Positions 3,261 through 62,559 of a stretch of DNA of 64,000 nucleotides are shown in pieces. A program made the position numbers and the translations under genes. Numbering within the stretch: position 1 is the first letter of the stretch; every line of letters begins with the position of its first letter. The stretch lies in the NCBI RefSeq assembly GCF_038502225.1, contig NC_091382.1, forward strand, positions 11,188,243-11,252,242. The letters run 5' to 3'. The DNA is from Cherax quadricarinatus (taxonomy: Eukaryota; Arthropoda; Malacostraca; Decapoda; Parastacidae). The notes beneath the pieces are model-generated. The model saw nothing but the letters and a program-made list of their open reading frames with translations. It was not told the DNA's origin and did not search any database.

Positions 3261-4094
3261 ATGCCCTCCATCGAGCAACTTTACCAACAGCTTAAGGAAG
3301 AATTGAGGTTGGCGAAGATGGAGATTCGGCGACTGACCGAGGAAAAGAAGATTCGTAGTAGTCCTCCTGTTATGAGTCCTCAGGTCAAGAAGGGAAACTG
3401 GTCAGTGGCTGGACAGCAGGGAACGAAGTTGACGATCAAGAAGATGAATGGAAAGGTAGAAACGATGAAGAAGAAAGAGACTGCCGTGGAAACTGTTGTG
3501 GAAACATCTAATACATTCTCAGTGCTACCCGACGAATGTGAGTCGTCTACTGGGAACATCACGACGAACGACACCAAGGAAGGTAAGAATATTGTTGTTG
3601 TTGGGGATAGCCAAGTTAGATATATGGATAGGGTGTTCTGCTTGAAGGACAGGAGTAGGAGACAGAGAGTTTGCTTTCCTGGGGATGGGATAGAGGATAT
3701 TGTTAGCCGTCTGGATGACATCATGAGAGGTAATGGGAGCAATCCTATTATCTGTCTCAGTGCTGGAGGCAACGATGTTGGCAGACGTAAGAGTGAAGAC
3801 CTGATTAGCAGGTATAGGTCAGCAATAGAAATAATTAGGAGTAAGGGTGGGAACCCTGTCATATGTGGTATTTTGCCAAGGAGAGGAGTTGGAAATGAAT
3901 GGTTGTCCAGGGCAATTGGTGTCAATTGCTGGCTGGACAAATGCTGTAAGGAAAATGCGGTAACATTCATTGACAACTGGGACCTCTTCTATGGCAGAAA
4001 TGACATGTATGCCAGGGATGGGGTTCACTTATCTAGGTCTGGGGTGGTAGCACTGGCAACTGCAGTGGAGGGAGCAGTTAGGACTTTAAACTAG
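3261..4094 (+). CDS. CR1 ORF1 with SGNH/GDSL-esterase domain
   Basis: Intact 277-residue ORF. Residues 1-30 are charged and likely coiled-coil; residues 30-100 are Lys/Thr-rich. From about residue 110 an SGNH-hydrolase-like domain is visible: VVVGDSQVRYMD (block I, catalytic Ser), LSAGGNDVG (block III, GGND) and DGVHLSRSG near the C terminus (block V, Asp and His). Esterase-type ORF1 proteins are known from CR1-group LINEs and are thought to help bind nucleic acid or membranes. The first ATG after the 5' UTR was chosen. ORF2 begins 14 bp downstream in another frame. Confidence 0.85.
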   Translation: MPSIEQLYQQLKEELRLAKMEIRRLTEEKKIRSSPPVMSPQVKKGNWSVAGQQGTKLTIKKMNGKVETMKKKETAVETVVETSNTFSVLPDECESSTGNITTNDTKEGKNIVVVGDSQVRYMDRVFCLKDRSRRQRVCFPGDGIEDIVSRLDDIMRGNGSNPIICLSAGGNDVGRRKSEDLISRYRSAIEIIRSKGGNPVICGILPRRGVGNEWLSRAIGVNCWLDKCCKENAVTFIDNWDLFYGRNDMYARDGVHLSRSGVVALATAVEGAVRTLN

Positions 4095-4108
4095 GAATAG
4101 TTAGTGGT

Positions 4109-7044
4109 ATGGGTTTTGGCAGGAAAACAGTGAAGTCCCAGTGTAGTAATATTACGAGTTCTAGGGGAACTAGTAATAAGCAGAACAAGGTAGATATTGA
4201 AAAGCCAGGGACTTTGGGTGATAAGGACAGTAATAGGTTTAGTAGAAAAACAGAAATGAGCAGGAAGGGTAAAGAGAAAGGAGAGTCTTTCAATGTTTAT
4301 TATGCTAATTGCCGTAGTGCTAGGAATAAGATGGACGAGTTGAGATTAGTTGCTAGTGCAGGTAACATTGATGTATTTGCCTTAACTGAGACGTGGTTTA
4401 ATTCAAAAAGTCGGGACATGCCTGCGGAATGTCATATTCAGGGCTTTAAATTGTTCCAAGTAGATAGAAGTATCGGGAAGGGGGGTGGGGTGGCATTGTA
4501 TGTCCGAGATCGCTTGAACTGTTGCATAAAAACGGGTATTAAGTCTGGAGTAACACATACAGAGTCTGTTTGGATAGAATTTTCAGAGGGGCATGAAAAA
4601 CTGATTTTAGGAGTGATATACCGTCCCCCAAACTTAGATAGGGACCAAGGGAGACTACTATGAGAGGAAATTGTTAGGGCCACAAGGCACGATAATGTAG
4701 TAATTCTAGGAGACTAACTTCAGTCATATTGATTGGAATTTCTTGACTGGGAATTTAGAATCATACGACTTCTTAGAAGTAGTTCAGGATTTTTTGAAGC
4801 AGTTTGTGACAGAACCTACAAGGGGAAATAACCTGCTTGACTTAGTTATGGCAAACAATGAATCCCTTGTTAATAATTTAGAAATTTCAGATGAACTGGG
4901 TGCTAGCGGCCACAAATCAATTACATTTAGCATTGAATGGAAGTACGATAGTAGCAATAACTCAGTAACAGTCCCAGATTTTCGCTTAGCAGATTACGAT
5001 GGGCTTAGAGAACACTTATCATCTGTTGACTGGGGTAACGAAGTGAGCTATCAATATGACAGTTTTCTGAACACTATACATGCTGCTCAAAGAACGTTTA
5101 TCCCATATAAAGAAATTAGATCAAATAGAAATGACCCAAAATGGATGAATAATAGGCTCAAATATCTACTAGGGCATAAGAAAGGAATTTATAGGCGTAT
5201 CAAAAGAGGTGAGGGTCATCTTATGAATCAGTATATTGACATTAAGAGGGACATTAAAAAGGGGATAAGAAAAGCTAAAAGGGACTATGAAATTAAAGTT
5301 GCTAGGGATTCTAAAACTAACCCAAAAAGTTTTTTCCAGGTCTATAGAACAAAAGTTAGAGATAAGATAGGTCCCCTTAAAAATAACTATGGGCACCTTA
5401 CTGACAAAGAGAATGAAATGTGCTCGATTTTAAATAATTATTTTCTCTCAGGTTTTACACAGGAAGACACTAACAATATTCCAGTAATTAATTTTTATAG
5501 TGGGCTAGAAGAAGATAAATTATGTAACATCACAGTCACTAGTGAAATGGTTGTGAAGCAGATAGACAGACTGAAGCAAAATAAGTCGCCGGGTCCTGAT
5601 GAGGTTTTTTCAAGGGTTCTTAAGGAATGCAAAATGGAACTCTGTGAACCATTAACTAATATTTTTAATTCATCTCTTCAAACAGGTGTAGTGTCTGATA
5701 TGTGGAAGATGGCTAATGTAATTCCTATTTTTAAAACAGGGGACAAGTCGTTACAGTCAAATTACCGCCCAATAAGCCTGACCTCAATTGTAGGCAAATT
5801 ACTAGAGACAATTATAGATGAGATTATAAGAAGCCATCTCGATAAGCATAGCTTGATTAATGATACTCAGCATGGATTCACAAGAGGCCGGTCTTGTCTA
5901 ACTAATTTATTAACTTTCTTCAGTAAAGCTTTTGAGGCTGTTGACCACGATAAAGAATTTGATATTATTTACTTAGATTTTAGTAAGGCTTTTGATAAGA
6001 GTTCCGCACCATAGACTGTTAAAGAAAGTGGCAGCTCATGGCATTGGGGGAAAAGTGCTCTCGTGGATCGAGTCATGGCTCACTGACAGGAAGCAGAGTG
6101 TGTCCATAAATGGGGTTAAATCCGAGTGGGGATCTGTCACAAGTGGCGTTCCACAGGGATCAGTCTTGGGCCCGTTGTTGTTTATAATATATATCAATGA
6201 TCTTGATGAGGGAATTACTAGTGAAATGAGCAAATTCGCCGATGACACAAAGATAGGTAGGATAATTGATTCAAACGTAGATGTTATGGAACTTCAGGAA
6301 GATTTAAACAAGCTCTATTCTTGGTCAGAAAAGTGGCAGATGCAGTTCAATGTAGATAAATGCAAGGTTCTGAAGCTTGGGAGTGCCCATAACCCTAGTA
6401 CTTATAAGTTAAATGATGTAGAACTTAGCCATACAGATTGCGAAAAGGACTTGGGGGTTATGGTGAGCAGCAACCTTAAACCAAGACAGCAATGCCTAAG
6501 CGTACGTAATAAGGCAAATAGATTACTGGGATTTATATCAAGAAGTGTAAGCAACAGAAGTCCAGAGGTCATACTGCAGCTTTATACATCATTATTAAGG
6601 CCTCACCTAGATTATGAAGCTCAGTTCTGGTCTCCATATTACAGAATGGACATAAATTCGTTAGAAAACATTCAGCGTAGGATGACTAAAATAATACATA
6701 GCATTAGAAATCTTCCTTATGAAGAAAGATTGAAGACTCTTAAGTTACATTCACTTGTTAGACGAAGAATGAGGGGAGACCTGATCGAAGTGTATAAGTG
6801 GAAGATAGGTATTAATAAAGGGGATATTAATAAGGTCTTGAGGATGTCTCTCCAAGAGAGAACCCGCAGTAATGGATTTAAATTAGATAAGTTTAGATTT
6901 AGAAAGGACATAGGAAAGTATTGGTTTGGAAATAGGGTAGTTGATGAGTGGAACAGTCTACCTAGTTGGGTTATTGAGGCTGGGACTTCTGGTAGTTTCA
7001 AATTTAGGTTGGATAAGTACATGAGTGGGAGGGGTTGGATTTGA
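4109..7044 (+). pseudogene. CR1 ORF2 (endonuclease-reverse transcriptase), frameshifted
   Basis: Three pieces in three frames: 4109-4663 (start of the APE-like endonuclease, NVYYANCRSARNKMDEL, ALTETWF), 4743-6014 (endonuclease C terminus, then RT: KSPGPDEV, NVIPIFKTGDK, NYRPISLTSIVGKLLE, DFSKAFD) and 5992-7044 (GVPQGSVLGPLLF, KFADDTK and the C-terminal ICR region). A stop and frame change fall near 4663-4743. An extra base just after AFDK near 6000 causes the second break. The catalytic Asp boxes remain recognisable. The 49230-51641 copy shows the uninterrupted frame. Confidence 0.85.
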
Positions 7045-21394: not shown

Positions 21395-21650
21395 AGTTTA
21401 CCTGGAGAGAGTTCCGGGGGTCAACGCCCCCGCAGCCCGGTCTGTGACCAGGCCTCCTTAGGTCAGTGTCCCAGGATGCGACCCACACCAGTCGACTAAC
21501 ACCCAGGTACCCATTTTACTGATGGGGAACATAGACAACAGGTGGAAAGAAACACGTCCAATGTTTCTACTCTGGCTGGGAATCGAACCCAGGCCCTCAC
21601 CATGTGAAGCGAGAGCGTTAACCACCAGGCCACCAGAGCCCAAGACAATC
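21395..21650 (-). mobile_element. tRNA-headed SINE with LINE P 3' tail
   Basis: Read on minus: a tRNA-like head with A box TGGCCTGGTGGTTAACGC and B box GGTTCGATTCCC about 35 nt apart, a unique middle, then a tail (ACCGGGCTGCGGGGGCGTTG, CCCCGGAACTCTCTCCAGGT). The tail matches the 3' end of family P LINEs at 60475-60530 and 54540-54600. A shared 3' tail is how many SINEs borrow a LINE reverse transcriptase. It is not a functional tRNA: the acceptor stem is not closed. Confidence 0.8.
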
Positions 21651-21766: not shown

Positions 21767-24700
21767 ATTATTATTATCACACTGGCCGATTCCCACCAAG
21801 GCAGGGTGGCCAGAAAAAGAAAAACTTCCACCATCATTCACTCCATCATTGTCTTGCCAGAAGGGTGCTTTACACTACAGTTTTTAAACTGCAACATTAA
21901 CACCCCTCCTTCAGAGTGCAGGCACTGTACTTCCCATCTCCAGGACTCAAGTCTGGCCTGCCGGTTTCCCTGAACCCCTTCATAAATGTTACTTTGCTCA
22001 CACTCCAACAGCACGTCAAGTATTAAAAACCATTAGTCTCCATTCACTCCTATCAAACACGCTCACGCATGCCTGCTGGAAGTCCAAGCCCCTCGCACAC
22101 AAAACCTCCTTTACCCACTCCCTCCAACCTTTCCTAGGCCGACCCCTACCCCGCCTTCCTTCCACTACAGACTGATACAATCTTGAAGTCACTTTGTTTC
22201 GCTCCATTCTCTCTACATGTCCGAACCACCTCAACAACCCTTCCTCAGCCCTCTGGACAACAGTTTTGGTAATCCCGCACCTCCTCCTAACTTCCAAACC
22301 ACGAATTCTCTGCATTATATTCACACCACACATTGCCCTCAGACATGACATCTCCACTGCCTCCAGCCTTCTCCTCGCTGCAACATGCTTCACACCCATA
22401 TAAGAGCATTGGTAAAACTATACTCTCATACATTCCCCTCTTTGCCTCCAAGGACAAAGTTCTTTGTCTCCACAGACTCCTGAGTGCACCACTCACCCTT
22501 TTCCCCTCATCAATTCTATGATTCACCTCATCTTTCATAGACCGATCCGCTGACACGTCCACTCCCAAATATCTGAATACATTCACCTCCTCCATACTCT
22601 CTCCCTCCAATCTGATATCCAATCTTTCATCACCTAATCTTTTTGTTATCCTCATAACCTTACTCTTTCCTGTATTCACTTTTAATTTTCTTCTTTTGCA
22701 CAACCTACCAAATTCATCCACCAATCTCTGCAACTTCTCTTCAGAATCTCCCAAAAGCACAGTGTCATCAGCAAAGAGAAACTGTGACAACTCCCACTTT
22801 ATGTGTGATTCTTTATCTTTTAACTCCACGCCTTTTGTCAAGACCCTCGCATTTACTTCTCTTACAACCCCATCTATAAATATATTAAACAACCATGGTG
22901 ACATCACACATCCTTGTCTAAGGCCTACTTTTACTGGGAAATAATTTCCCTCTTTCCTACATACTCTAACTTGAGCCTCACTATCCTCGTAAAAACTCTT
23001 CACTGCTTTCAGTAACCTACCTCCTACACCATACACCTGCAACATCTGCCACAATGCCCCCCTATCCACCCTGTCACACGCCTTTTCCAAATCCATAAAT
23101 GCCACAAAGACCTCTTTAGCCTTATCTAAATATTGTTCACTTATATGTTTCACTGTAAACACCTGGTCCACACACCCCCTACCTTTCTTAAAGCCTCCTT
23201 GTTCATCTGCTATCCTATTCTCCGTCTTACTCTTAATTCTTTTAATAATACCTCTACCATACACTTTACCAGGTATACTCAACAGACTTATCCCCCTATA
23301 ATTTTCGCACTCTCTTTTGTCCCCTTTGCCTTTATACAAAGGAGCTATGCATGCTCTCTGCCAATCCCTAGGTACCTTACCCTCTTCCATACATTTATTA
23401 AATAATTGCACCAACCACTCCAAAACTATATCCCCACCTTCTTTTAACATTTCTATCTTTATCCCATCAATCCCGGCTGCCTTACCCCCTTTCATTTTAC
23501 CTACTGCCTCACGAACTTCCCCCACACTCACAAGTGGCTCTTCCTCACTCCTACAAGATGTTATTCCTCCTTGCCCTATACACGAAATCACAGCTTCCCT
23601 ATCTTCATCAACATTTAACAATTCCTCAAAATATTCCCTCCATCTTCCCAATACCTCTAACTCTCCATTTAATAACTCTCCTCTTCTATTTTTAACTGAC
23701 AAATCCATTTGTTCTCTAGGCTTCCTTAACTTGTTAATCTCACTCCAAAGCTTTTTCTTATTTTCAACAAAATTTGTTGATAACATCTCACCCACTCTCT
23801 CATTTGCTCTCTTTTTACATTGCTTCACCACTCTCTTAACCTCTCTCTTTTTCTCCATATACTCTTCCCTCCTTGCATCACTTCTACTTTGTAAAAACTT
23901 CTCATATGCTAACTTTTTCTCCCTTACTGCTCTCTTTACATCATCATTCCACCAATCGCTCCTCTTCCCTCCCGCACCCACGTTCCTGTAACCACAAACT
24001 TCTGCTGAACACTCTAACACTACATTTTTAAACCTACCCCATACCTCTTCGACCCCATTGCCTATGCTCTCATTAGCCCATCTATCCTCCAATAGCTGTT
24101 TATATCTTACCCTAACTGCCTCCTCTTTTAGTTTATAAACCTTCACCTCTCTCTTCCCTGATGCTTCTATTCTCCTTGTATCCCATCTACCTTTTACTCT
24201 CAGTGTAGCTACAACTAGAAAGTGATCTGATATATCTGTGGCCCCTCTATAAACATGTACATCCTGAAGTCTACTCAACAGTCTTTTATCTACCAATACA
24301 TAATCCAACAAACTACTGTCATTTCGCCCTACATCATATCTTGTATACTTATTTATCCTCTTTTTCTTAAAATATGTATTACCTATAACTAAACCCCTTT
24401 CTATACAAAGTTCAATCAAAGGGCTCCCATCATCATTTACACCTGGCACCCCAAACTTACCTACCACACCCTCTCTAAAAGTTTCTCCTACTTTAGCATT
24501 CAGATCCCCTACCACAATTACTCTCTCACTTGGTTCAAAGGCTCCTATACATTCACTTAACATCTCCCAAAATCTCTCTCTCTCCTCTACATTCCTCTCT
24601 TCTCCAGGTGCATACACGCTTATTATGACCCACTTTTCACATCCAACCTTTACTTTAATCCACATAATTCTTGAATTTACACATTCATATTCTCTTTTCT

Positions 24701-25345
24701 CCTTCCATAACTGATCCTTCAACATTACGGCTACCCCTTCCTTTGCTCTAACTCTCTCAGATACTCCAGATTTAATCCCATTTATTTCCCCCCACCAAAA
24801 CTTCCCTACCCCCTTCAGCTTTGTTTCGCTAAGGGCCAGGACATCCAACTTCTTTTCATTCATAACATCAGCAATCATCTGTTTCTTGTCATCCGCACTA
24901 CATCCACGCACATTCAAGCATCCCAGTTTTATAAAGTTTTTCTTCTTCTCTTTTTTAGTAAATGTCTACAGGAGAAGGGGTTACTAGCCCATTGCTCCCG
25001 GCATTTTAGTCGCCTCATACGACACGCATAGCTTACGGAGGAAAGATTCTTTTCCACTTCCCCATGGACAATAGAAGAAATAAAGAAGAACAAGAGCTAT
25101 TTAGAAAAAGGGGAAAAACCTAGATGTATGTATATATATATGCATGTGCGTGTCTGTGAAGTGTGACCAAAGTGTAAGTAGGAGTAGCAAGATATCCCTG
25201 TTATCTAGCATGTTCATGAGACAGAAAAAGAAACCAGCAATCCTACCATCATGCAAAACAGTTACAGGTTTCTGTTTCACAGTCATCTGGCAGGACGCTA
25301 GTACTTCCCTGGGTGGTTGCTGTCTACCAACCTACTACCTGCAAT
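21767..25345 (-). mobile_element. near full-length RTE-like LINE
   Basis: About 3.6 kb on minus. The 5' end is near 25345 (GGTAGTAGGTTGGTAGACAG, shared with the start of the copy at 43197), the 5' UTR runs to 24918, one long endonuclease-RT ORF follows (24917 to about 22016), then a 3' UTR and a terminal (ATA)n at 21767-21779. No ORF1 was seen, as in many RTE elements. This is the reference copy for the many fragments in the window. Confidence 0.85.
22016..24917 (-). pseudogene. RTE-like endonuclease-reverse transcriptase, one frameshift
   Basis: An 876-residue frame (24917-22287) plus a C-terminal continuation in another frame (22399-22016). The APE-like endonuclease occupies about residues 1-235: LALSETKLKG, VYAPGEER, VVGDLNAKVG, ISDHFLV. 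RT spans about 440-760: APLYKGKGDK, NYRGISLLSIPGKVY, EQGGFKKGRG, FMDLEKACDRV, GLRQGCVMSPWLFNIFID, FLFADDTVLLG. The usual KAFDRV reads KACDRV. After LLYGCEA a short deletion near 22385 shifts the frame into LRWFGHVERM and GRGRPRKGW. Otherwise open, so this copy is young. Confidence 0.9.
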
Positions 25346-31691: not shown

Positions 31692-33101
31692 TTAACTCGC
31701 TCCAAATTTTTTTCTTATTTTCGTCAAAATTTCTCAACAGTGCCTCTCCCATTCTATCATCTGCTCTGCTTTTGCACTCTCTTCACCTTTCTTTTACTCT
31801 CCATATACTCTACTCTTATTATAACACTTCTGCTTTGTAAAAACCTCTCATAAGCTACCTTTTTCTCTTTTATCACATCCTTTACTTCATCATTCCACCA
31901 ATCACTCCTCTTTCCTCCTGCACCCACCCTCCTATAACCACAAACTTCTGCCCCACATTCTAATATGGCATTTCTAAAATTATCCCATCCCTCTTCAACC
32001 CATCCACTACCCACAATTACTCCACTTTTTTGCCAATAGTTGCTTATATCTCACCCTAACTTCCTCCTCCCTAAGATTATAAACTTTCACCTCTCTCTTA
32101 CTTGTTGTTGCCATTTTCCTCTTTTCCCATCTGCCTCTTACTCTAACTGTAGCTACAACTAAATAATGATCTGATATATCCGTTGCCCATTTTTTACTAT
32201 CAGTACAATTTACTCTTAAGATTTTTGACATTATTTTAGTTACCATTACTTGTTTAATAACCATAACCTGTTTTAACACCACATTTACTATCTTGGAGTA
32301 GTTCCTTACTCTTAAATACCTTGTACTACCAATTAAGCACTAGTATAACTACCACTGCAATATTGAATCCAAATAACTGTTCTTAAAATTTAGTACTTGA
32401 TATAAACATTTCTTTTTTCATTTTATTTTTATTAATTAATATTTCTTGTAATCATTATTACTTACTACAATTTTATTAAACACCATATTTACTACCAGTC
32501 AACTTTACTTTTGTACATTAATCAATATTTTATACTTTTCTTAACCTTTTGTTGCCAAATTTTCAAGTTTGTATATTCAACTCCAACCTTTATACTGTAT
32601 TATCCTTTGTACCATCTTAATATCATATTATAACCAAGTCATTGCCATTTTTATTTTTCTATTTTATTCTTTTGGTACATTAATTTGTGTATTTTATCTT
32701 GTCAATTTCAATCTAGTTATACTCTTGTTCTTGTTAACAACTTATATTAGACCTTAGTGCAATTGCAAGTGAAAGTCTTGTACCATTTTAACTTGTATTC
32801 TTATTAGTTTATACCTAGTTGTACTTTAGCTCATTCTAGCTCAATACATAGACAACACAATTATAAGAGCGAGTCTGGTGCTATTTGTAATTTGTATTTT
32901 TATAGTATTAGTTTATACCTAGTTGTACTTGAGCTCATTCTAGCACAACACACAGACAATATCAACTTCATTATGTTTATTAGTGACTATACTCTATATG
33001 ACCAAAGTGCTTTAGCTATATACTTGTCCAACCTTCCCACTACTACAGATATCAGTATTAGAACTCACTGGATATAAATAACCACTATTTAAACCTAAAA
33101 G

Positions 33102-36100
33102 ATGAATAATCACATTGACCCTGATCTAAACCTCCATAATCTAACACACAATCAAAACTTATTGGAAAGTAACTGCTTTTATTACACAGCATCACAAGCC
33201 AGCACTATCCTGAATACTGCTCAAAGTCTATCAGTTCTTAACTACAACATCATGTCCTTAAGTAAACACTATGATGACCTCCTGGCACTCCTTGAGTCGC
33301 TAAAGACACCCTTCTCCTGCATTATTCTTACTGAGACCTGGCTTAAGCAGGACACAATAGATATCTACCCAATACCAGGATACACAGCAACCCACAACTG
33401 CAGACCATACCAAGTTGGGGGTGGTATTGCAATCTATTACTCTAACCAACTATCTTGTATTGGCACCACTTGCTTTAGTGATGAATATGGGGAATACATT
33501 TTTTCTAATTTTACTGTAAAAAACCTTAGGACACCTATAACAATCAGTGCCATTTACCAGATACCCCACACAAACATCCCAAATTTCAGTGAGAATCTAA
33601 AGGCATTAATAACAAACAGAAAAATGAACAAGCACCACCTTCTCTTAGCTGAAGACTTCAACATCAACCTCGGCCTACCAGATGATCAGCCTGTAACTGA
33701 TTTCATCAACAATATGAACAACACACTTCTCATACCAACAATAACTAAACCAACCAGGATGACTGAGGCAAGTGCAACCATAATAGACCACATATGGGCC
33801 AATATACTAGCCCCCCTTAAATCAGGGATAATCACAGACAGCACTACAGACCACTACCCAACCTTCCTCTTAACTAACATTAGTAAGTCACCAGTCGAAT
33901 ACAACAAAATTTCATTTAGACTCCATGACGAGACCTCAATAAGAAATTTCACAGCAGACCTAGAGACTGTTGACTGGCCTACAGAATTCTACAATGCCAA
34001 TGGTATTGACGATTGGACAGACGTTTTTCTTAACAAAATACTTAGACTATACAACAAACATTGTCCTATAAAAACGAAACAGATCATGAATAAATGGCTC
34101 GGTTGCCCATGGCTAACCAGCAACATTCTGAAATCCATTGATAAAAAACACCAATATGAAAAGCAATATAGACAGGCCTTAATACACAAAGATATTCTTA
34201 AACAATTTGTTGGAGTGTGAGCAGGGTAATGTTTAATGAAGGGATTCAGGGAAACCGGTTATTTTTATATAGCCAGATTTGAGTCCTGGAAATGGGAAGT
34301 ACAATGCCTGCACTCTAAAGGAGGGGTTCGGGATATTGGCAGTTTAGAGGGATACGTTGTGTATCTTTATACATATATGCTTCTAAGCTGTTGTGTTCTG
34401 AGCACCTCTGCAAAAACAGTGATTATGTGTGAGTGAAGTGAAAGAGTTGAATGATGATGAAAGTATTTTCTTTTGGGGGATTTTCTTTCTTTTTGGGTCA
34501 CCCTGCCTTGATGGGAGACAGCCGACTTGTTAAAAAAAATTAAACAATATTCATCAGTTCTCACCAAATTAATAAAAAAAGCCAAACAACTATACTACTC
34601 CAGCAGATTCACTGACACAAGAGGAGATATAAAAAAGATCTGGAAAACACTTTCCCAGATTCTGGGGACCCACAAACTAAAAAAAAGTCAAGAATATTGT
34701 CCGAACTAAACCTAATCAAACACCACTGAATCCCACTGATACAGCTAACAAGATAAACGACTTCTTCTCAAACATAGGATCTCATCTCGCTAGTAAAATC
34801 CCACGTACCAACACCCGTGCCGGGGACTACCTAGATGGGAATTTTCCAAATTCCTTCTATCTTGCACCAACTGAGCCCATGGAAGTCACCGCGATTATAA
34901 AGTCACTCAAAAATAACTCAGGGAATCTGTCTCACGTCCCACCATTATTGTACAAGCGAGCGGCCCATGTCCTTTCGCATGCTATTACATTACTTTTTAA
35001 CAAGTCACTAAAAACTAGCACTTTCCCGACACTACTCAAGACAGCAAGGGTTACACCAATACATAAAGGAGGTGACCCTACAGATGTAAACAACTATAGG
35101 CCAATATCAAACTTACCATTGCTATCTAAAATCTTCAAGAAACTCATGCACAGGAGACTATATTCATTTATAACGGCACAAAACATACTCAACCCCTGCC
35201 AATTTGGATTCAGGAAAAATAAAAACACTAATGATGCAATTGTAAATGATGCAATTGTAAAAATGCCAGATCTGCTTTACACAGCATTGGAAAATAGCGA
35301 ATATCCGCTAGGAATTTTTATTGACCTAAGAAAAGCGTTTGACACAGTAGACCACAGCATCCTACTCCACAAACTTGACCATTATGGTATAAGAGGCCAT
35401 GCACTTGCATATTTCAAATCCTACCTTACTAATAGGTATCAGTATGTCACCATTAAAGACACAGCCTCATCAACATGGCCACTTGATACTGAGTCCGCAG
35501 GGAAGTGTCCTTGGTCCCCAGCTCTTATTCATTTACATTAATGATCTTCCAAACGTATCCCAACACCTGAAACCCATTCTCTTTGCTGACGACACGACTT
35601 ACGTCATCTCCCACCCTGATCTTGCCACCCTCAACACCATTGTCAACGAGGAGCTACTCAAAATTCTGACTTGGATGACAGCCAATAAACTTACACTTAA
35701 CACTGACAAAACCTACTACATTATGTTTGGTAGCAGAGCAGGTGTTGCGCACCTTAACATTAAGATGGACAACACTTTAATTGTCATACACAATGAGGGC
35801 AAATTCCTAGGTCTGTACCTTGACAACAACCTAAATTTCAGCACCCATATCCAACACATAACAAAAAAAAAGTATCCAAAACGGTGGGGATCCTCTCCAA
35901 GATACAACATTACGTGCCGCAAACTGCCCTTCTCACACTATACCATTCACTCATTTATCCATACCTCACCTATGTTATTTGTGCTTGGGGATCAACTGCA
36001 GCAACACATCTAAAGCCAATAATAACCCAACAAAAAGCCGCAGTAAGAATAATCACTAAATCCCATCCCTGGCAACACCCCCCCCCCTTACTCTTCATAG

Positions 36101-36420
36101 ATCTAAACTTACTCCCTGTTCAGAACTTCCACACTTACTACTGTGCAATCTACATCTACAGGACCTTAAATTCCAATATTAACCTTGAGCTACAACGCTT
36201 TCTTGATAGTTGTGACAGGACCCACAGGCATAACACCAGACACAAACATCTCTATGACATTCCCCGTGTCCGACTAAACCTTTACAAAAATTCAATGTGT
36301 GTCAAAGGGCCTAAAATCTGGAACACCCTACCTGAAAACTCTAGAACTGCAGACACATTCATCACTTTCAAAACTACATTTAGAAAACATCTTATCTCCC
36401 TGATACACTCTGTCAACTAA
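33102..36420 (+). pseudogene. L2-like endonuclease-reverse transcriptase, interrupted
   Basis: Endonuclease at 33102-34206: NYNIMSLSKHYDDL, ILTETWLKQDT, YQVGGGIAIYY, EDFNINLG (usual GDFN reads EDFN), TIIDHIWAN, TDHYPTFL. After the RTE-tail insertion at 34207-34539 it resumes with SSVLTKLIKKAKQLYYSS. RT: KTARVTPIHKGGDP, NYRPISNLPLLSK, NPCQFGFRKNKNT, FIDLRKAFDTVDH, then a frame break to PQGSVLGPQLLFIYINDL and LFADDTTYVI. A second break near 35880 leads to the C terminus. A 15-bp tandem duplication (AATGATGCAATTGTA) sits at 35230-35260. Confidence 0.85.
34207..34539 (+). mobile_element. RTE-like 3' tail insertion with 9-bp TSD
   Basis: 333-bp 5'-truncated RTE 3' UTR with a short A-run, flanked by exact TTAAACAAT (34198-34206, 34540-34548). 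It splits the L2-like ORF and matches the family 3' UTR at 16830-17132 throughout. Confidence 0.85.
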
Positions 36421-43640: not shown

Positions 43641-43944
43641 TGAAAGAACTTAGATACCCAAATGTGCAACATTTGGGTCTTTAATGAGGAAGCATTTTGC
43701 CACACAGTGGCTTCATCAGTCCATACAAAGGAGAATGGTGAAGAACAGGAGTAGTTTTAGGTAATCAGTCCCTCAGCCTTGAGTCAATGTGGTCAGTCCA
43801 TCAATCTTGAAAAGTATACAGCATATGTGCTGAGAAGTAGCTTATATACCGTAGGCAGGAGGGGTGCAGCAGTCGTAGGTGGTATCACATTTGTCCAATG
43901 TGGAAGTAGGTCATGCCCAAGGGTTAGGCAAGTGAAGAATTGCC
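43641..43944 (-). mobile_element. ribozyme repeat unit, family B
   Basis: Minus-strand unit parallel to 58325-58600. In order: CTTGGGCATGACCTACTTCC, a TATA-like GGTATATAAGC (about 43840-43853), repeated GGACTGA words, the hammerhead-like core, then ATTAAAG. It abuts an RTE copy at 43945. Confidence 0.75.
43688..43722 (-). ncRNA. hammerhead-like ribozyme motif, probably inactive
   Basis: Minus strand: stem I GGA, CTGATGA, A, stem II GCCAC-TGT-GTGGC, then AAAA instead of GAAA (core G12 lost), TGCT, and stem I partner TCC. Stems are intact; the core substitution should abolish cleavage. Confidence 0.65.
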
Positions 43945-49044: not shown

Positions 49045-51640
49045 TAAGAACATAAGAACATAAGAACATAAGAACGAAGGAACACTGCAGAAGGCCTACT
49101 GGCCCATGCGAGGCAGGTCCAAGTCCCTACCGGCTTAAGCCAATGCACCCAACCTAGTCAGGTCAGGTCACATTGACTTAAGGGAGGAACACGGCAACCG
49201 ACCTGTTAGCACAAGCTATCAGGTCTAACTCACACCCACCCACATCTACTCATGTATTTATCCAACCTATTTTTAAAGCTACACAACGTTCTGGCCTCTA
49301 TAACGGTACTTGGGAGTTTGTTCCACTCATCCACAACTCTATTACCAAACCAGTACTTTCCTATATCCCTCCTGAATCTGAATTTTTCCAACTTAAAACC
49401 ATTGCTGCGAGTCCTGTCTAGGCTAGATATTTTCAGCACACTATTTACATCCCCTTTATTTATTCCTGTCTTCCACTTATAAACCTCAATCATATCCCCC
49501 CTAATTCTACGTCTTTCTAGAGAGTGCAGTTTCAGGGCCCTTAGTCTATCCTCATAGGGAAGGTTTCTGATACATGGGATCATCTTTGTCATCCTCCTTT
49601 GTACATTTTCCAGAGAATTTATATCCATTCTGTAATACGGTGACCAAAACTGTGCAGCATAATCTAAATGAGGCCTAACCAAGGATGTATAGAGTTGAAG
49701 AACAACCTGAGGACTCCTATTATTTATGCTTCTTGATATGAAGCCAAGGATTCTATTAGCTTTATTGCGAACACTTATGCACTGTTGTCTTGGTTTCAGA
49801 TTACTGCTAACCAGAACTCCTAAATCTTTTTCGCAATCCGTAATATTAAGATCTACATTATTTAGTTTATATGTGGCATGGTTATTGTCCTGTCCAACAT
49901 TTAGAACTTTGCATTTGTCTATATTAAACTGCATCTGCCACTTCTCCGACCACTGCATCAGTCTATTCAAATCTTCCTGGAGTGCTCGAATGTCCTCGTC
50001 AGAATGAATTCGACGGCCTATTTTGGTGTCATCGGCAAACTTGCCGATGTCGCTCTTTATGCCCTCATCTATGTCGTTTATGTAGATTGTGAACAGCAGG
50101 GGGCCCAACACTGACCCCTGTGGAACACCGCTCGTGACGCTTCCCCACTCTGATTTCTCCCCATTTATGCAAACTCTCTGCTGCCTATTTGTCAACCATG
50201 CCTCTATCCAGGAAAAAATTTCTCCTCCTATTCCATGTGCTTTAATTTTCCTCAATAGTCTCTGATGTGGGACCCTGTCAAAAGCCTTACTGAAGTCCAT
50301 ATACACAATATCATATTCATTACCATGATCTACCTCCTCAAATACCTTAGTGAAAAAAGTTAATAAATTCGTAAGGCAGGAACGCCCCTTTGTAAAACCA
50401 TGCTGAGATTCGTTGATTAATTTATGCTTTTCAAGGTGGCTACGAACTGCCTCGGCAATTATTGATTCCATAAATTTTCCCACTATGGAGGTTAGGCTTA
50501 TTGGTCTATAGTTCGAAGCTAAGGACCTGTCACCTGTTTTGAAAATAGGTATCACATTTGCCATTTTCCACTTATCTGGCACCATGCCAGTTTGTAGTGA
50601 TATGTTGAAAAGATTAGCCAAAGGTGTGCTAAGCTCCTCTTTACATTCCTTTAGAACCCTTGCATACAGTTCATCAGGGCCTGGGGATTTGTTAGGTTTT
50701 AATTTATCTATTTGCCTAAGGACCATGTCACTTGTGACCCTAATAGTGCACAGTTTATTATCGTCCTGTTCTACATAATTTATCATTACTGGAATATCGC
50801 TGGTATCCTCCTGTGTAAAAACTGAGAGGAAGTATGTGTTAAAAATTCTACACATTTCCTTATCACTGTCAGTGAGCTGACCCGAGGAACTTTTGAGTGG
50901 GCCTATCTTGTCCCTGATCTTACTTCTGTATACCTGAAAGAATCCTTTTGGGTTAGTCTTCGATTCTCTTGCAACTTTAACCTCATAATCTCTTTTTGCT
51001 TTTCTAATTCCCTTTTTTATTTCTCTCTTTAACTGAATATATCGATTTCTTAATTGCCCCTCTCCTCTTTTGATTTGCCTATATATGCCTCTCTTTTGAC
51101 CAATCAGATATTTTAATCTATTGTTCATCCATTTAGGATCATTTTTGTTTGATCTGATTTCCCTATTTGGAACATAATTTGACTGAGCAGCTAGAACTAT
51201 GCCCTGGAAAGCATCATATCGGCAACCATCACCACCTACCTGACCCCTAGTCAGGTCATTCCAGTTCAGCCCACCTAAGTAATTTTTCAGTCCTATGAAA
51301 TCAGCCAAGCGAAAGTCAGGGACGGAGACTTGATTGCCATTATTAGGGGAATTCCATGATATGTTAAAACTGAGTGATTTGTGATCACTCTCCCCAAGCT
51401 CATCATTAACCTCAAGATTATTAATTAGTGTTTCCCTACTGGCAAGAACCAAGTCAAGGAGGTTATTTCCCCTAGTTGGCTCTGTCACAAACTGTTTTAA
51501 AAAACAATCCTGGATCGTATCAAGAAAGTCACCCGACTCTAAATTTCCTGTCAAATTGCTCCAGTCAATCTGTCTATAGTTGAAATCTCCCATTAGCACA
51601 ACATTTTCGTATGTAGATGCCTTACGAATTTCGTAAGGCA
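49045..51640 (-). mobile_element. CR1 LINE, 5'-truncated
   Basis: Minus-strand copy of the family at 3200-7390. The 3' end is an 8-bp (TTATGTTC)n tract at 49045-49074. The 3' UTR then leads into ORF2. It starts inside the endonuclease, so ORF1 and the endonuclease N terminus are absent. The 5' junction carries a 31-bp palindrome. Confidence 0.9.
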
Positions 51641-51641
51641 T
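49230..51641 (-). pseudogene. CR1 ORF2, 5'-truncated but otherwise open
   Basis: 803 residues without a break. The endonuclease C-terminal half (VVLMGDFNYRQIDW, LGESDHKSL) occupies the first 100 residues. RT spans about residues 310-580 (NKSPGPDEL, NVIPIFKTGD, NYRPISLTSIVGKFME, QHGFTKGRSCLTNLL, YMDFSKAFDRV, GVPQGSVLGPLLF, KFADDTK). The C-terminal region (NLPYEDRLRALKLHSLERRR, RSNGFKLEKFRFRR, YWFGNRVVDEWNKLP) follows. The first Met is an accident of the 5' junction. The catalytic motifs are intact, indicating a recent insertion. Confidence 0.9.
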
Positions 51642-52199: not shown

Positions 52200-53202
52200 G
52201 AAGGAGCCTGGAAACAGTTGTTATCCCAGTCATTAAAAATCACCGATACTGTCCCAATCCACTAAGGTGGCAGTAAAGTAACTACAAAAAACTATTGACC
52301 AAAAGCACTAATGTCATGCATTATCAAAAATCATTCAAAGGGTTTTAAGAAGCAAGACTGCCAATCATATAAAATTACATCAGTTGCATAATCTGGAGCC
52401 CTATGGGTTTAGAGCATGTCATTCCTGTTTATCACAATTGCTAGACCATTACAACATGGTCTTGGATGCACCGAAGTATTTGCTCATTCCTGTGTACTTG
52501 ACAAGGCCCAGTCTTGGGCAAAACATTGTATTAAAAGGATCCTCTCCAATAAGTGTCTATATTCCCACTTGTCAGCAACTGCCATGATCTATCTACCCTT
52601 CACAACTTAACCTTCATAGTTATTCACATAATCAGGTCAATTACACCTCCTATGTTCCTCACTCTGCCTATATATTCTTATGTTTACCATGTACTCCAAG
52701 AATATGTACTTGAAAAAACTTGGTCTCCAAGCAAAACTGTGTTAATATAACATTCATCCTACCTTGATATCTAAATTCTGCACTGTTGATAAAAGTGAAG
52801 GGCTATATTCAATGTACCGAAACTGCTGTCCTCAGCATTATCATTCATTCCTCAGATACTGTATAACCCTATAATGCCTTCCCTTGAATATAATAATGGT
52901 TAATATTGAGTTTAGCTACAGTTCTGAATTAAGCAATATACATATTTCTTAAAATACAAGAAGGTTATCTATTCCCAAGCAAAAATAGTTATTTCTTATG
53001 CATACTTTTATGAGGAAGATTTTGTGGCAAAAAATGTGCACCACATCTAATCAGCTGCTAGCATTCAGTCATACAGCCCCTGTAATATACCTACTGCAAA
53101 AGTAAAATACGTATTTATAATCTTGTGTGTGATAAATGGTTTAGAAAACCGACAGCTTGAAGAATCGAGACACTTATGCAACATATGGGAATCCTTACTG
53201 AA

Positions 53203-53236
53203 GAAGTGTTTCACCACACAGTGGCTTCATCAGTCC
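53203..53236 (-). ncRNA. hammerhead-like ribozyme motif, cleavage site changed
   Basis: Minus strand: GGA, CTGATGA, A, GCCAC-TGT-GTGGT (last pair G-U), GAAAC, A, CTT, CTTC. Core boxes are intact, but the expected GTT before the cut reads CTT. Confidence 0.6.
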
Positions 53237-53495
53237 AATACAAAGCAGGAGAGTATAAGGAGAGGAGGAGTTGAGGTAATCAGTCCCTTAGCCTGGAATC
53301 GATGTGTTCAGTCCATCACTCTTGTATATAATAAGTATATAGGAAGTGGCTTATATACTGAAGTCAGATGAGTCGAAGCAGGAGGAGGCGGGATCACAGT
53401 GGGACCATCCACTAGTGTAAGTACATCTTCGTCCAAAGATTGGACAAGTGTTGAAGAATTCTTTGTATCAAGATCTCATGATGTTGCAGTGTATT

Positions 53496-53532
53496 AGACT
53501 GATGAAGCCACTGTGTGGCAAAACATTTCTTC
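53496..53532 (+). ncRNA. hammerhead-like ribozyme motif, probably inactive
   Basis: AGA, CTGATGA, A, GCCAC-TGT-GTGGC, then AAAAC in place of GAAAC, ATTTCTTC, AATAAAG. Core G12 is replaced by A. Confidence 0.6.
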
Positions 53533-54600
53533 AATAAAGATTCCCATATGTTGCATAAGTGTCTCAATTCTCCATTTATAATTTTGTTTCGGTTAGGTTA
53601 CCAGAAGCTTATCTCCCATCCTGTTCCTCATCCTCATAACAAACACAGACAGATATGTAAACCATAGTACCATGTCATCCTTTGCAGACAATACAAGGAT
53701 CTGCATGAGACTATCATCCATTGAGGACACGGCAAATCTCCAATAAGATATAAACCAAGATTTCCAATAAGCAACGGAAAACAATATGATGTTCAATGAG
53801 GACAAATTCCAATGACTCCATTATAGAAAACTGGAGGAAATAATAGCCAGCACTGAGTGTACTACAAACTCTAACCACATAATAGAGCAGAAAAGTAATG
53901 TGAAAGACCTGGGAGTGATAATGTCTGAGGATCTCACCTTCAAGGATCACAATAATGCACCTATCACATCTGCGAGGAAAATGACAGGATTGAGATGATC
54001 CTTTTTAAATCACTTGTCCTCTCTAGGCTGGAATACTGCTATACTTTAACATCCCCATTCAAGGCAAGTGAAATCACAGATCTAGAGAATGTACAGAGAA
54101 CCTTTACTGCATATACAAATTCTGTAAAACACCTTAACTACTGGGAATGCTTGAAGCACTTAACTTGTACTGGAGCACAGGTGAGATGTATCATAATCTA
54201 CACCTGGAAACTCCTAAAGGAACTGGTCCTTAATCTACACACAAATCACTCTCTACAAAAGCAAAAGACTTGGCAGACAATGCAACATGCCCCCAATAAA
54301 AAGTAAGGGTGTCATCAGTACACTAAGAGTAAACACAATAAGTGCCTTGGCCCCAAGACTGTTCAACAGCCTCCCACCAGGCATAAGGGAAATTATCAAT
54401 AGACCCCTGGTTACCTTTAATTAAGAGGAAGATGGACAGATACCTAGAGTCAGTGCTGGATCAACCAGGCTGTGGTTTGTACGTTGCACTACATGTGGCC
54501 AACAGTAACTGCCAAGTTGATCAGGCCCCGATCCACTGGGAAGCCTGGTCATGGACCGGGCCACGAAAGCGTTGATCCCCGGAATACCCTCCAGATAGGT

Positions 54601-56575: not shown

Positions 56576-56768
56576 ATTCTACCAATGAGTATTATCCATG
56601 TTAAGATTCGTGATCATGTGAACGAACAGTGCACATGGAAAAGCTATGCAGCAGGCATCATGTCAAGCAGGTCCTGCTCAAAGACAACCAGTCTTGAACA
56701 TTAAAATGGTATAAAATACCGACAGATTGTCAGGTAAGACACATATGCAACAGTTAGGTATCTTTATT

Positions 56769-56807
56769 TCGAAACGTTTCGCCTACACAGTAGGCTTCTT
56801 CAGTCGA
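56769..56807 (-). ncRNA. hammerhead-like ribozyme motif A1
   Basis: Minus strand: stem I TCGA, CTGAAGA, A, stem II GCCTAC-TGT-GTAGGC, GAAAC, GTT, stem I partner TCGA, then AATAAAG. Predicted cut after GTT (between 56773 and 56772). The stem III arm ACGT is self-complementary and would pair best between two copies. One extra A sits between CTGAAGA and stem II. Confidence 0.75.
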
Positions 56808-57167
56808 GTACAGAAAAGTTGATAGAAGCAGAAGATACTTGAAGACGATGTAATCAGTCCATCACCCTTAAAGTTTTGAGGTGGTCAGTCCCTCAGTCTG
56901 GAGAAGAGCATTGTTCCGTTGTCTGAAACAATATGAAGTTGAAGTGACAGGATGGAGCGTTTATATAGTGCCAGGAGGTGAGACGTAGGTTGCTTTGGGA
57001 GGGCAGGTCCCTCTCAAACTCAGCCGTTCTCACTAGTAGAGGTCGAAGTTGATGGTCTGTACCAAGATACCCTTGTGTTGCAGTGTCTGACAGAATGAAC
57101 ATTAAAATGGTATAAAATACCGACAGATTGTCAGGTAAGACACATGCAACAGTTAGGTATCTTTATT

Positions 57168-57206
57168 TCGAAACGTTTCGCCTACACAGTAGGCTTCTTC
57201 AGTCGA
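57168..57206 (-). ncRNA. hammerhead-like ribozyme motif A2
   Basis: Identical to A1 in core and stems. The predicted cut lies 399 nt from that of A1, so self-cleavage of a tandem transcript would release unit-length RNA. Confidence 0.75.
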
Positions 57207-57564
57207 GTACAGAAAAGTTGATAGAAGCAGAAGATACTTGAAGACGATGTAATCAGTCCATCACCCTTAAAGTTTTGAGGTGGTCAGTCCCTCAGTCTGG
57301 AGAAGAGCATTGTTCCGTTGTCTGAAACAATATGAAGTTGAAGTGACAGGATGGAGCGTTTATATAGTGCCAGGAGGTGAGACGTAGGTTGCTTTGGGAG
57401 GGCAGGTCCCTCTCAAACTCAGCCGTTCTCACTAGTAGAGGTCGAAGTTGATGGTCTGTACCAAGATACCCTTGTGTTGCAGTGTCTGACAGAATGAACA
57501 TTAAAATGGTATAAAATACCGACAGATTGTCAGGTATCTTCTGCTTCTATCAACTTTTCTGTAC

Positions 57565-57603
57565 TCGACTGAAGAAGCCTACTGTGTAGGCGAAACGTTT
57601 CGA
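57565..57603 (+). ncRNA. hammerhead-like ribozyme motif A3
   Basis: Plus-strand copy: TCGA 57565-57568, CTGAAGA 57569-57575, stem II 57577-57591, GAAA 57592-57595, GTT 57597-57599, TCGA 57600-57603. An outer pairing AGGTATCTT (57532-57540) with AAGATACCT (57608-57616) is also available. Confidence 0.75.
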
Positions 57604-57965
57604 AATAAAGATACCTAACTGTTGCATATGTGTCTTACCTGACAATCTGTCGGTATTTTATACCATTTTAATGTTCATTCTGTCAGACACTGCAACACAA
57701 GGGTATCTTGGTACAGACCATCAACTTCGACCTCTACTAGTGAGAACGGCTGAGTTTGAGAGGGACCTGCCCTCCCAAAGCAACCTACGTCTCACCTCCT
57801 GGCACTATATAAACGCTCCATCCTGTCACTTCAACTTCATATTGTTTCAGACAACGGAACAATGCTCTTCTCCAGACTGAGGGACTGACCACCTCAAAAC
57901 TTTAAGGGTGATGGACTGATTACATCGTCTTCAAGTATCTTCTGCTTCTATCAACTTTTCTGTAC

Positions 57966-58004
57966 TCGACTGAAGAAGCCTACTGTGTAGGCGAAACGTT
58001 TCGA
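57966..58004 (+). ncRNA. hammerhead-like ribozyme motif A4
   Basis: Plus strand, 401 nt downstream of A3 with the same core, stems and GTT site. The outer pairing GTATCTT with AAGATAC is retained. Confidence 0.75.
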
Positions 58005-58324
58005 AATAAAGATACCTAACTGTTGCATATGTGTCTTACCTGACACACAACCAGTCTTATCCCTGAATAACAACACTATCAACTCAAGAGCTACACCCGT
58101 AAGGGTCATACAGCGCTCCGGGAAGGAATGTGCGAGAGTTCAGAGTGAATGTGGGGTAGGGATGTGCGAACTAAGGGTTAGTGGCGGTGGGGAATTAGTG
58201 CAAGAGTAAAATTTAAATCAAAGTTGGTGCAATAGGTTAGTTTCCATTAAAATATCAAAGAGAGAGTACTCTGAAGTTAGGATTTTCAACAAAGTTAGTG
58301 AGCATGTTAGGGCGGTGTAAACAT

Positions 58325-58600
58325 CAATTCTTGGGCACAACCTACTTCCACACTGAACAAATGTAACACCACCTATGACTGCTGCACCTCTCCTGCCATA
58401 CGGTTTATAAGCTCCTTCTCCGCTCATCTGCCGTATTCTACTCAAGATTGATGGACTGAACACATCGACTCAAGGTTGAGGGACTGATTACCTCATTCTC
58501 CTCCTGTTCTTCAAGTTTCTCCTATGTATGGACTGATGAAGCCACTGTGTGGCGAAACAGTTTCCTCAATAAAGATACCCAAGAGTTGCACATGTGTCTA
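58325..58600 (+). mobile_element. ribozyme repeat unit, family B
   Basis: Plus unit: TTGGGCACAACCTACTTCCA, TTTATAAG box (58404-58411), GATGGACTGA and GAGGGACTGATTACC, ribozyme core, AATAAAGATACCC, GTTGCACATGTGTC. Left boundary uncertain. Confidence 0.75.
58530..58565 (+). ncRNA. hammerhead-like ribozyme motif B, core intact
   Basis: Stem I GGA (58530-58532) pairs with TCC (58563-58565). CTGATGA (58533-58539), A, stem II GCCAC-TGT-GTGGC (58541-58553), GAAA (58554-58557), C, A, GTT (58560-58562). All conserved core residues are present, apart from the extra A before stem II shared by every family here. Confidence 0.78.
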
Positions 58601-58727
58601 ATTTACAATAATCTTGAAAGTAATATACTGTGTTTGCTATTTTGCTTCAAACCCCTTCCCTTATAAATATAGTACTTAAATTAACGCTTTCCATAGCAGC
58701 CGCACGTCAATTTTCTATGTAGGACGA

Positions 58728-61660: not shown

Positions 61661-62026
61661 TGGCAGAACCATCTACCAGCATAACACTGCTCGACTACAG
61701 TATTACTATCACTAATCCTCAGTTTTACTAAGACAATATTAAAAATTAATTACAATCTAGAAGATTAGGCAGCTTTAAATTAATGCTGTTTAACGAGAAG
61801 TTCCCCAATTTTGGTGGGAAAATTAAAATTTATTAAAAATGTTAGATCCTATTTTCATTTTACGTTAGGCTAACAATTTGCATTGTTAAATTAGGTTGCA
61901 CATAACCTAATCTAACTAATTTTAAAACGGTTGCTATGCGTCAAGAAATATAAGCTAACATAAGGTATCACTGGTGTTGCGAGAATAAGATGAATACCAA
62001 CACAACACTGATACCAAAATTGTGAT
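61661..62026. other. unassigned sequence
   Basis: AT-rich; no signal recognised. Confidence 0.45.
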
Positions 62027-62364
62027 AGTTAGGCAACTTTATTCCGAAACGTTTCGCCTACACAGTAGGCTTTTTCAGTCGAATACACAAAGTAGGCAGG
62101 AACAGTAGAGATGTGAAGACGATGTAATCAGTCCATCACCCTTGAAGTCGAAGAACTTGAGGTTGTCAGTCCCTCAGCCTGGAGAAGTTCAGTTCCATAG
62201 TCAGGAACTATCTGAAGATCAAGCGACAGTGCAGAGACTTAAATACTGTCGGAAGGAGAGGTGCAGAGTAGTAGTAGTAGTGAGAATGTAGCCACTGAGA
62301 GTCCATGTCCCTCTCAGATCTAACATACATACAACCTGTCGGTATTGTATACCATTTTGATGTT
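62027..62364 (-). mobile_element. retrozyme-like monomer with 12-bp TSD
   Basis: 338 bp flanked by exact CAAAATTGTGAT (62015-62026, 62365-62376). It begins AGTTAGGCAAC and ends CCATTTTGATGTTC, the same terminus as the family A array. A TATTTAAG box, a single ribozyme motif and AATAAAG are present in the family A order on minus. Diverged from the 56.7 kb units, so an independent insertion. Confidence 0.85.
62041..62084 (-). ncRNA. hammerhead-like ribozyme motif, probably inactive
   Basis: Minus strand: ATTCGA, CTGAAAA (core G8 changed to A), A, GCCTAC-TGT-GTAGGC, GAAAC, GTT, TCGGAAT. Stem II and the GAAAC/GTT half are intact. Confidence 0.65.
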
Positions 62365-62559
62365 CAAAATTGTGATGGTTGAATTTGTACTCTCAAATTC
62401 ATACAGGGCTGTAGATGAATGGTGCAGCAGCAGTGTACAGTAAGTGCAACACTAACGCTGTGATTTGTAAGGAATTGAATTACTTTAACACTTCGTCTCG
62501 CACCTGCACCAACACACACTTGGAGGATAACTGAAGGATATTTCCGTGGTTCAACGCCC

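Follow-up and report, generated by a model that had tools for sequence, protein, structure and literature searches.

A 400-bp element with minimal hammerhead motifs, probably a satellite of Penelope-like elements integrated by two-ended target-primed reverse transcription

How Penelope-like elements (PLEs) integrate is a long-open question. EN-containing PLEs of the Penelope/Poseidon clade are protein-coding elements with head-to-head arms, a tail of 30-40 nt, a minimal hammerhead, TATA and TCACT sequences in a pLTR-like part and two reverse transcription starts. Their head-to-head pLTRs are already in print (PMC3846280), and PMC3846280 and PMC11167929 both refer to the tail as 'optional'. A liking for AT-rich target sites is a further trait of autonomous PLEs. 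Minimal hammerheads of PLEs lack helix III (PMC6155905, PMC7761336), and the minimal hammerheads of animal genomes have been called dispersed, with an unknown role (PMC7761336). In vitro, an Anolis PLE protein cuts and extends both strands, with two internal starts that match the tail, and a PLE hammerhead is reported to cut only when protein is present and to be dispensable for insertion (PMC11167929).

Retrozymes are the other described systems that come close. Those of metazoans that lack LTRs are tandem, non-coding units of approximately 400 bp with canonical type I hammerheads, low GC and target site duplications (TSDs) of more than 4 bp, as described in PMC7229834. Loop contacts and a helix III in the hammerhead, and expression as circular RNA, also characterise this group. 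Plant LTR retrozymes are likewise non-autonomous and hammerhead-bearing, and a circular RNA has been suggested for them (PMC4918200); in the contrast drawn by PMC7229834 they have a pair of LTRs, a type III hammerhead and a 4-bp TSD, none of which is present in the element described here.

The window, a 64-kb stretch of the Cherax quadricarinatus genome, contains an insert of 1351 bp (56696-58046) bounded by two exact 12-bp TSDs, ACAACCAGTCTT, at 56684-56695 and 58047-58058 (neither assigned a strand). Its unit is 400 bp long with 43.25% GC and no LTR, is repeated in tandem at spacings of 399 and 401, and is too short for an ORF encoding RT and GIY-YIG domains. Unit positions, u1-u400, are counted along the strand that carries the hammerhead-like motif, with the predicted cut falling between u324 and u325. 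A minus arm of 2.1 units (56696-57536), with an outer end of what we term the long type (u399/400), is followed by a plus arm of 1.3 units (57530-58045) with an outer end of the short type (u367). The two arms have the sequence TCAGGTA (57530-57536) in common at their head-to-head junction, and the single C at 58046, before the right TSD, belongs to neither. Perfect inverted arms span 397-418 bp, and the two minus-arm units are told apart by an AT indel (CATATG/CATG) that looks like rare slippage. The outer long end carries a 'tail', u368-u399 (56696-56727, minus strand), within which lies the hairpin GGTAT/ATACC (56708-56721), while the outer short end has no tail. A box-like sequence, TATATAAA, is found at u130-137 (57806-57813 on the plus strand; minus-arm copies at 56960-56967 and 57359-57366), 12 bp from an Inr-like TCACT at u150. 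These resemble the PLE pLTR promoter described in PMC3846280, where the spacing is 20 bp rather than 12.

The insert contains four copies of the motif TCGA-CTGAAGA-A-GCCTAC-TGT-GTAGGC-GAAACGTT-TCGA. Two are on the minus strand, at 56769-56807 (predicted cut between 56773 and 56772) and 57168-57206 (between 57172 and 57171), and two on the plus strand, at 57565-57603 (predicted cut after 57599) and 57966-58004 (after 58000). The first-pass annotation had described four hammerhead-like motifs in units of about 400 bp between exact 12-bp TSDs, with an insertion ending at 58058, and all of this was confirmed in the sequence, 58058 being the last base of the right TSD; the parts it had named for each motif (CTGAAGA, a 6-bp stem II and a TCGA/TCGA stem I) are likewise present, with GAAACGTT following stem II. 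Its proposal of a multimer with ribozyme-like motifs that was retrotransposed as a single piece, akin to retrozymes and Penelope elements, is supported by what follows. It had also stressed that ribozymes lie on both strands; the motifs do so, with no special meaning, as their orientation merely mirrors that of the two arms.

A genome search with the unit gave 624 candidates, of which the best 40 were scored, yielding 112 matches at 34 loci (sample 1). The 33 loci besides the window were fetched, and 37 insertions were delimited from pieces of at least 92% identity and at least 150 bp summed. By this piece threshold 30 were two-armed and 7 one-armed, one of the latter (L053) having a plus arm of about 20 nt, and none of the 37 insertions among these best 40 of 624 candidates had the plus-then-minus order. 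A direct repeat of 11-16 bp flanks 22 of the 37, with lengths, which include bases common to the element ends, of 12 bp (seven), 13 bp (seven), 14 bp (six), 11 bp (one) and 16 bp (one). Every one of these 22 TSD-flanked insertions has one long and one short end. Once TSD-shared bases are set aside, long ends lie at about u398-u402 and short ends at u367-u371, except in L056 (u356), and in head-to-head insertions the tail is 32-33 nt long and present on one arm. The 15 insertions without such a TSD comprise four two-armed ones with a long and a short-like end at u353-u368 (L032, L033, L040 and the first of L042), five two-armed ones with one end at neither site (L035, the second of L042, L043, L045 and L060; 5/30) and six that are one-armed. 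L033 and L048 adjoin Ns, and L032 lies at the edge of the fetched stretch. No insertion in sample 1 (best 40 of 624) had two ends of one type.

The inner joins of the 21 two-armed TSD insertions have an overlap of 1-8 bp in 17 cases, none in one and 1-12 extra bases in three. None of the 42 inner ends is within 3 nt of the hammerhead cut, and all 42 arms, the longest of which in sample 1 is 1505 nt, cross the cut site. Arm length did not differ overall by end type (Mann-Whitney p 0.88), and arms of less than 300 nt numbered five with short ends against none with long ends; since the sample is biased towards near-complete units, we draw no inference from arm lengths.

A second search, with the L061 unit, gave 2928 candidates, of which the best 40 were scored; these yielded 158 matches, 150 of which were chained by coordinates into 36 loci (sample 2). 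Wherever both strands occur at these 36 loci the order is minus-then-plus. One end of each type was found at 12 of the 16 two-armed loci, including L061, already in sample 1, so that 11 were added. One locus, C2:42849-45897, typed from coordinates, is long/long with an internal short end at 43930 and is probably a composite of two insertions; the other three have one end at neither site, making eight such two-armed copies over both samples. The 69 loci of the two samples (34 and 36 with one in common, and a few possible duplicates) have different flanks, and junctions and TSDs differ among the sample 1 loci; the insert is not a one-place artefact. Since only the best 40 candidates (150 in the GIY-YIG search below) were scored, young, near-complete copies are over-represented. 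The stretch G000:C81:5248921-5254412 is a one-strand array of approximately 12.8 continuous units with one break before it. At G000:C853 34431-52815 four pieces lie on one strand; an unusual 3' end (q47) recurs in three of them, which are unevenly spaced and may reflect a segmental duplication.

The same layout is found in the resident PLEs. In a GIY-YIG search of the genome, in which the best 150 of 14992 candidates were scored, all 27 neighbouring pairs within 6 kb were minus-then-plus. The first-pass annotation had judged a mixed direct and inverted order to be less usual; it is in fact regular, both in the sampled satellite copies and in these elements. One locus, L083, has a 608-codon open frame with RVT_1 and GIY-YIG domains, the RT domain having been checked in this locus only. 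The unit was matched somewhere in 17 of 20 fetched GIY-YIG loci: the matches in L065, L067, L071 and L076 are satellite copies nearby, whereas in the remaining loci it is a segment lying beyond the end of the ORF that matches the hammerhead-to-tail part of the unit (within u282-u391) at 67-73%. When 13 such segments from 12 loci were aligned, eight had the tail and five stopped just before it, and these correspond to the two end sites of the satellite. Fourteen bases, CGGTATTTTATACC, are identical to the unit in seven of the eight tail-bearing segments. All 13 have a degenerate hammerhead core, with CTTGAAAAA or CTTGAGAAA instead of CTGAAGAA, and keep the stem II hairpin and GAAACGT, save one with CAAAACGT. 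Given this degenerate core, the PLEs aligned here are at most candidates for the exact helper.

Searches with PLE 3' regions (best 40 candidates scored in each) gave eight pairs with both ends typed by coordinates, and two more pairs (L073 and L081) were typed by sequence; all ten have one long and one short end, the two arms being assumed to form one insertion. Pairs with one end at neither site (C59:2.43M, C2290, C62, C6:70.9M and C3094) were not counted, nor were the complex locus C34:20.03M and loci with one arm among the matches listed. Pooling these pairs with the satellite copies gives 43 one-of-each against one same-type, and the chance of at most 1 in 44 is about 3e-12, a figure that assumes independent, evenly split ends, comes from loci that are non-random and leaves out copies with an end at neither site. 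The PLE insertion at L081 (1090-2514), with one short and one long end, has flanks that share about 11 bp, GGTAGCTGAGT, by eye. At L067 (1630-2903), near a GIY-YIG match, there is another satellite subfamily with a GGA-type stem I, a CTGATGA core and tandem units of approximately 362-378 bp.

The satellite thus resembles the EN-containing PLEs in its head-to-head arms with one tail (about 31 nt in PLEs), minimal hammerhead, TATATAAA and TCACT sequences, two starts and short TSD of variable sequence, and it has a cis module and ends in common with a resident PLE. It differs in being protein-free, with both arms a multimer of the 400-nt unit, and is not itself an autonomous PLE, as it does not have the single RT and GIY-YIG ORF found in L083. 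Its TSDs (11-16 bp, 20 of 22 being 12-14 bp) are somewhat longer than the 8-10 bp given for PLEs of A. vaga.

Taken together, we consider it likely that the insert is a non-autonomous, retrozyme-like 400-nt satellite of PLEs integrated by two-ended target-primed reverse transcription. The satellite RNA would carry the minimal hammerhead motif and two reverse transcription starts, u367 and u400, flanking the tail hairpin shared with PLEs. A PLE protein would make staggered cuts in the target, about 12-14 nt apart on the two strands, and both of the resulting 3' overhangs would act as primers for cDNA on satellite RNA, one at u367 and the other at u400. The copying would make one or more rounds of a template that is one unit long and most likely circular RNA, and the two cDNA 3' ends would then join, mostly via short homology, to give head-to-head arms between TSDs. 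The link between TSD and layout is that, if both strands are cut and each 12-14-nt 3' overhang primes, a TSD with inward-facing antisense cDNAs on both sides results. The model starts from what is seen in the sequences (the anatomy, the TSDs, the pairing of a long with a short end, the module and ends common to GIY-YIG PLEs, and a single haplotype within an insertion) and goes on to a presumed PLE enzyme, 3' overhangs, RNA circle and ribozyme activity.

What is new here, in genomic terms, is that both insertion ends are element 3' ends and that they use different start sites. The in vitro assay does not explain this one-of-each rule, because Frangieh et al. report that start sites did not differ between the top strand and the bottom one (PMC11167929). 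We found no statement of a one-tail-per-insertion rule in the titles and abstract openings of the literature searched, a scope outside which most subscription papers fall. As the two starts flank one hairpin, a PLE dimer, such as PMC11167929 predicts, might hold a primer at each of its two sides. That the satellite and the typed PLE pairs both follow the rule suggests that priming is coupled between the two ends, and the mirror-image layout of the insert is explained if copying began at each end of the break. The satellite also connects retrozymes with PLEs through their cis signals, and suggests an origin and a helper for many of the dispersed minimal hammerheads of animal genomes. We tentatively extend this to a more general proposal, in which PLE integration would be obligately two-ended (a dimer on one tail hairpin bringing the two 3' ends of a staggered break to starts on opposite sides of that hairpin, so that each insertion receives one tailed and one tail-less end) and minimal-hammerhead circles would be PLE satellites copied round, with both cDNAs coming from one circle.

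The nature of the template was addressed by comparing units. At nine diagnostic sites, comparing units pairwise showed a difference in 15 of 825 cases within insertions against 6291 of 18511 between them, with 23 cells fixed and five mixed. Forty-two variants are fixed in both arms and none only in one arm of at least two units, the others comprising 14 in a single-unit arm and 52 in some units. Over all sites, the difference within insertions is 0.59% in the same arm and 0.65% in opposite arms; in L032 and L057 internal differences are as large as those from other insertions. In a nearest-arm test only 15 of 36 arms had their partner as the closest arm or as one of several equally close, but this count is low because the young family differs by few bases, and the diagnostic-site test is the better one. 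As far as the data show, each insertion appears to be built from one unit haplotype, both arms included, which speaks for an RNA template that was circular or else a homogeneous multimer. Repeated reading of a circle accounts for this most simply, with the homogeneous multimer as a plausible alternative.

Measured from the predicted cut, the starts are 43 and 76 nt further downstream, and any longer arm would have been copied from RNA that was uncut or re-ligated at the cut. A linear monomer cleaved by the hammerhead was rejected as template: its starts would be 43-76 nt from the 5' end, yet arms reach 1505 nt and all 42 run through the cut site. We also dropped the idea of a common 5' end set by Pol II, inner ends being scattered (Rayleigh p 0.15 over the 21 insertions). 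It is a real possibility, if a somewhat doubtful one, that an older array was instead transcribed into a multimer that served as template without being cleaved, the hammerhead being a structural relic. The uncut passage of all 42 arms through the hammerhead site fits such a transcript, as does the independence of PLE insertion from ribozyme activity in vitro (PMC11167929), and the five mixed cells against 23 fixed leave it some room. L050, a one-armed copy without a TSD of 7 bp or more, begins exactly at u325, as the predicted cleavage product would, so that in this single case the template may have ended freely at that position. Against this, an array that has aged should pass on its unit differences when transferred repeatedly, whereas insertions appear to have one haplotype each, and the C81 array has 12 consecutive units of equal score, although equal score is not proof of identity.

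Two-ended priming also has to be weighed against self-priming or template switching, in which a single cDNA primed at the target would fold back, or change strand on circular, multimeric or antisense RNA, and be copied into the inverted arm. For the head-to-head repeats of PLEs, junction palindromes have led to a proposal of self-priming with an antisense template (PMC3846280), and the inner overlaps of 1-8 bp in 17 of 21 insertions could serve a switch as well as a join. A fold-back copy should, however, share the outer site or enter the flank, whereas the other start site was used in all 22 TSD-flanked copies, and the TSDs indicate that both strands were cut. We therefore regard this route as very unlikely; the template switching raised by the first-pass annotation is unneeded, the complementary long and short ends being a better fit to two separate target-primed starts.

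The form of the ribozyme bears on whether the satellite could be a canonical retrozyme. Its core pattern has four matches in the 64-kb window and none in 20 first-order shuffles. The predicted minimum-energy fold of the motif is the two-stem fold, but it is barely more stable than shuffled sequence (z -1.0, 33 of 200 shuffles at least as stable). The motif has one extra A before stem II relative to the textbook hammerhead consensus, and its helix III is just ACGU, which is unable to form a hairpin. By its predicted structure it is therefore a hammerhead of the minimal PLE type, with helix III reduced to a palindrome, and not the canonical type I of animal retrozymes. An Rfam search of the kind proposed in the first-pass annotation, run on the window and the element, found no hammerhead at gathering score or at E <= 10, the sole two matches at that threshold being to a microRNA family (E 9.4). 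A genome-wide RF00163 search gave no hammerhead match, but as its controls gave none either, this negative carries no weight.

In eight hand-picked distinct motifs from satellite subfamilies, a CUGANGA/GAAAC core with paired stems I and II has 93.3% of cells paired. All five double-changed cells are in stem I, where one position is C-G, G-C, U-A or G-U, and stem II pairs are invariant where present. Covariation in this set was 0.186 against 0.065 in shuffles, with one of 500 shuffles and no slid controls as high; double changes affect two pairs, a count that 200 of 500 shuffles reach and that is not unusual. The core is retained in most satellite copies matched by pattern search. Lunse and co-workers (2017) reportedly described small PLE hammerhead variants acting as dimers; these too reportedly have a palindromic ACGU for helix III, suited to pairing between motifs, and cleavage of the present motif is putative. 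Two motifs are predicted to associate via the palindrome around GAAACGTTTC, in an arrangement that differs from the active hammerhead fold, and, folded as a circle, the unit is only slightly more stable than its shuffles (z -1.9, 3/100).

A canonical animal retrozyme of the Cervera and de la Pena type would have a monomer-active type I hammerhead and use the machinery of some other retrotransposon. The 400-bp tandem unit, type I order of the hammerhead parts, 43% GC, TSD of more than 4 bp and absence of an LTR agree with the account in PMC7229834, and the unit falls within the range for retrozymes of tandem non-coding units of 150-450 bp with GC below 50%. The reduced helix III and the lack of an Rfam hammerhead match nevertheless set the satellite apart, as do the PLE tail module, the inverted arms and the two-ended layout, of which we found no mention in the description of PMC7229834. 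The young-looking satellite is thus not a canonical retrozyme by its ribozyme, and we hold this origin to be highly improbable. A chromosomal inverted duplication or assembly fold-back, of which perfect inverted arms of 397-418 bp are typical, has next to no probability given the offset ends, the varied unit numbers and the occurrence at dozens of sites unrelated to one another, 22 of them with exact TSDs.

The window also holds older pieces of the satellite superfamily, 69-92% alike, at 61993-62260 (minus), 62331-62367 (plus), 58437-58609 (plus), 53134-53322 (minus), 53490-53564 (plus) and 43665-43814 (minus); two sets among them are likewise minus-then-plus. A tRNA-like match of 35 bits with an odd anticodon call lies at 21568-21639 (minus). 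Long open frames at 22287-24965 (minus), 49230-51641 (minus), 4082-7044 (plus) and 33099-36420 (plus) resemble, by eye, LINE-type endonuclease/reverse transcriptase sequences.
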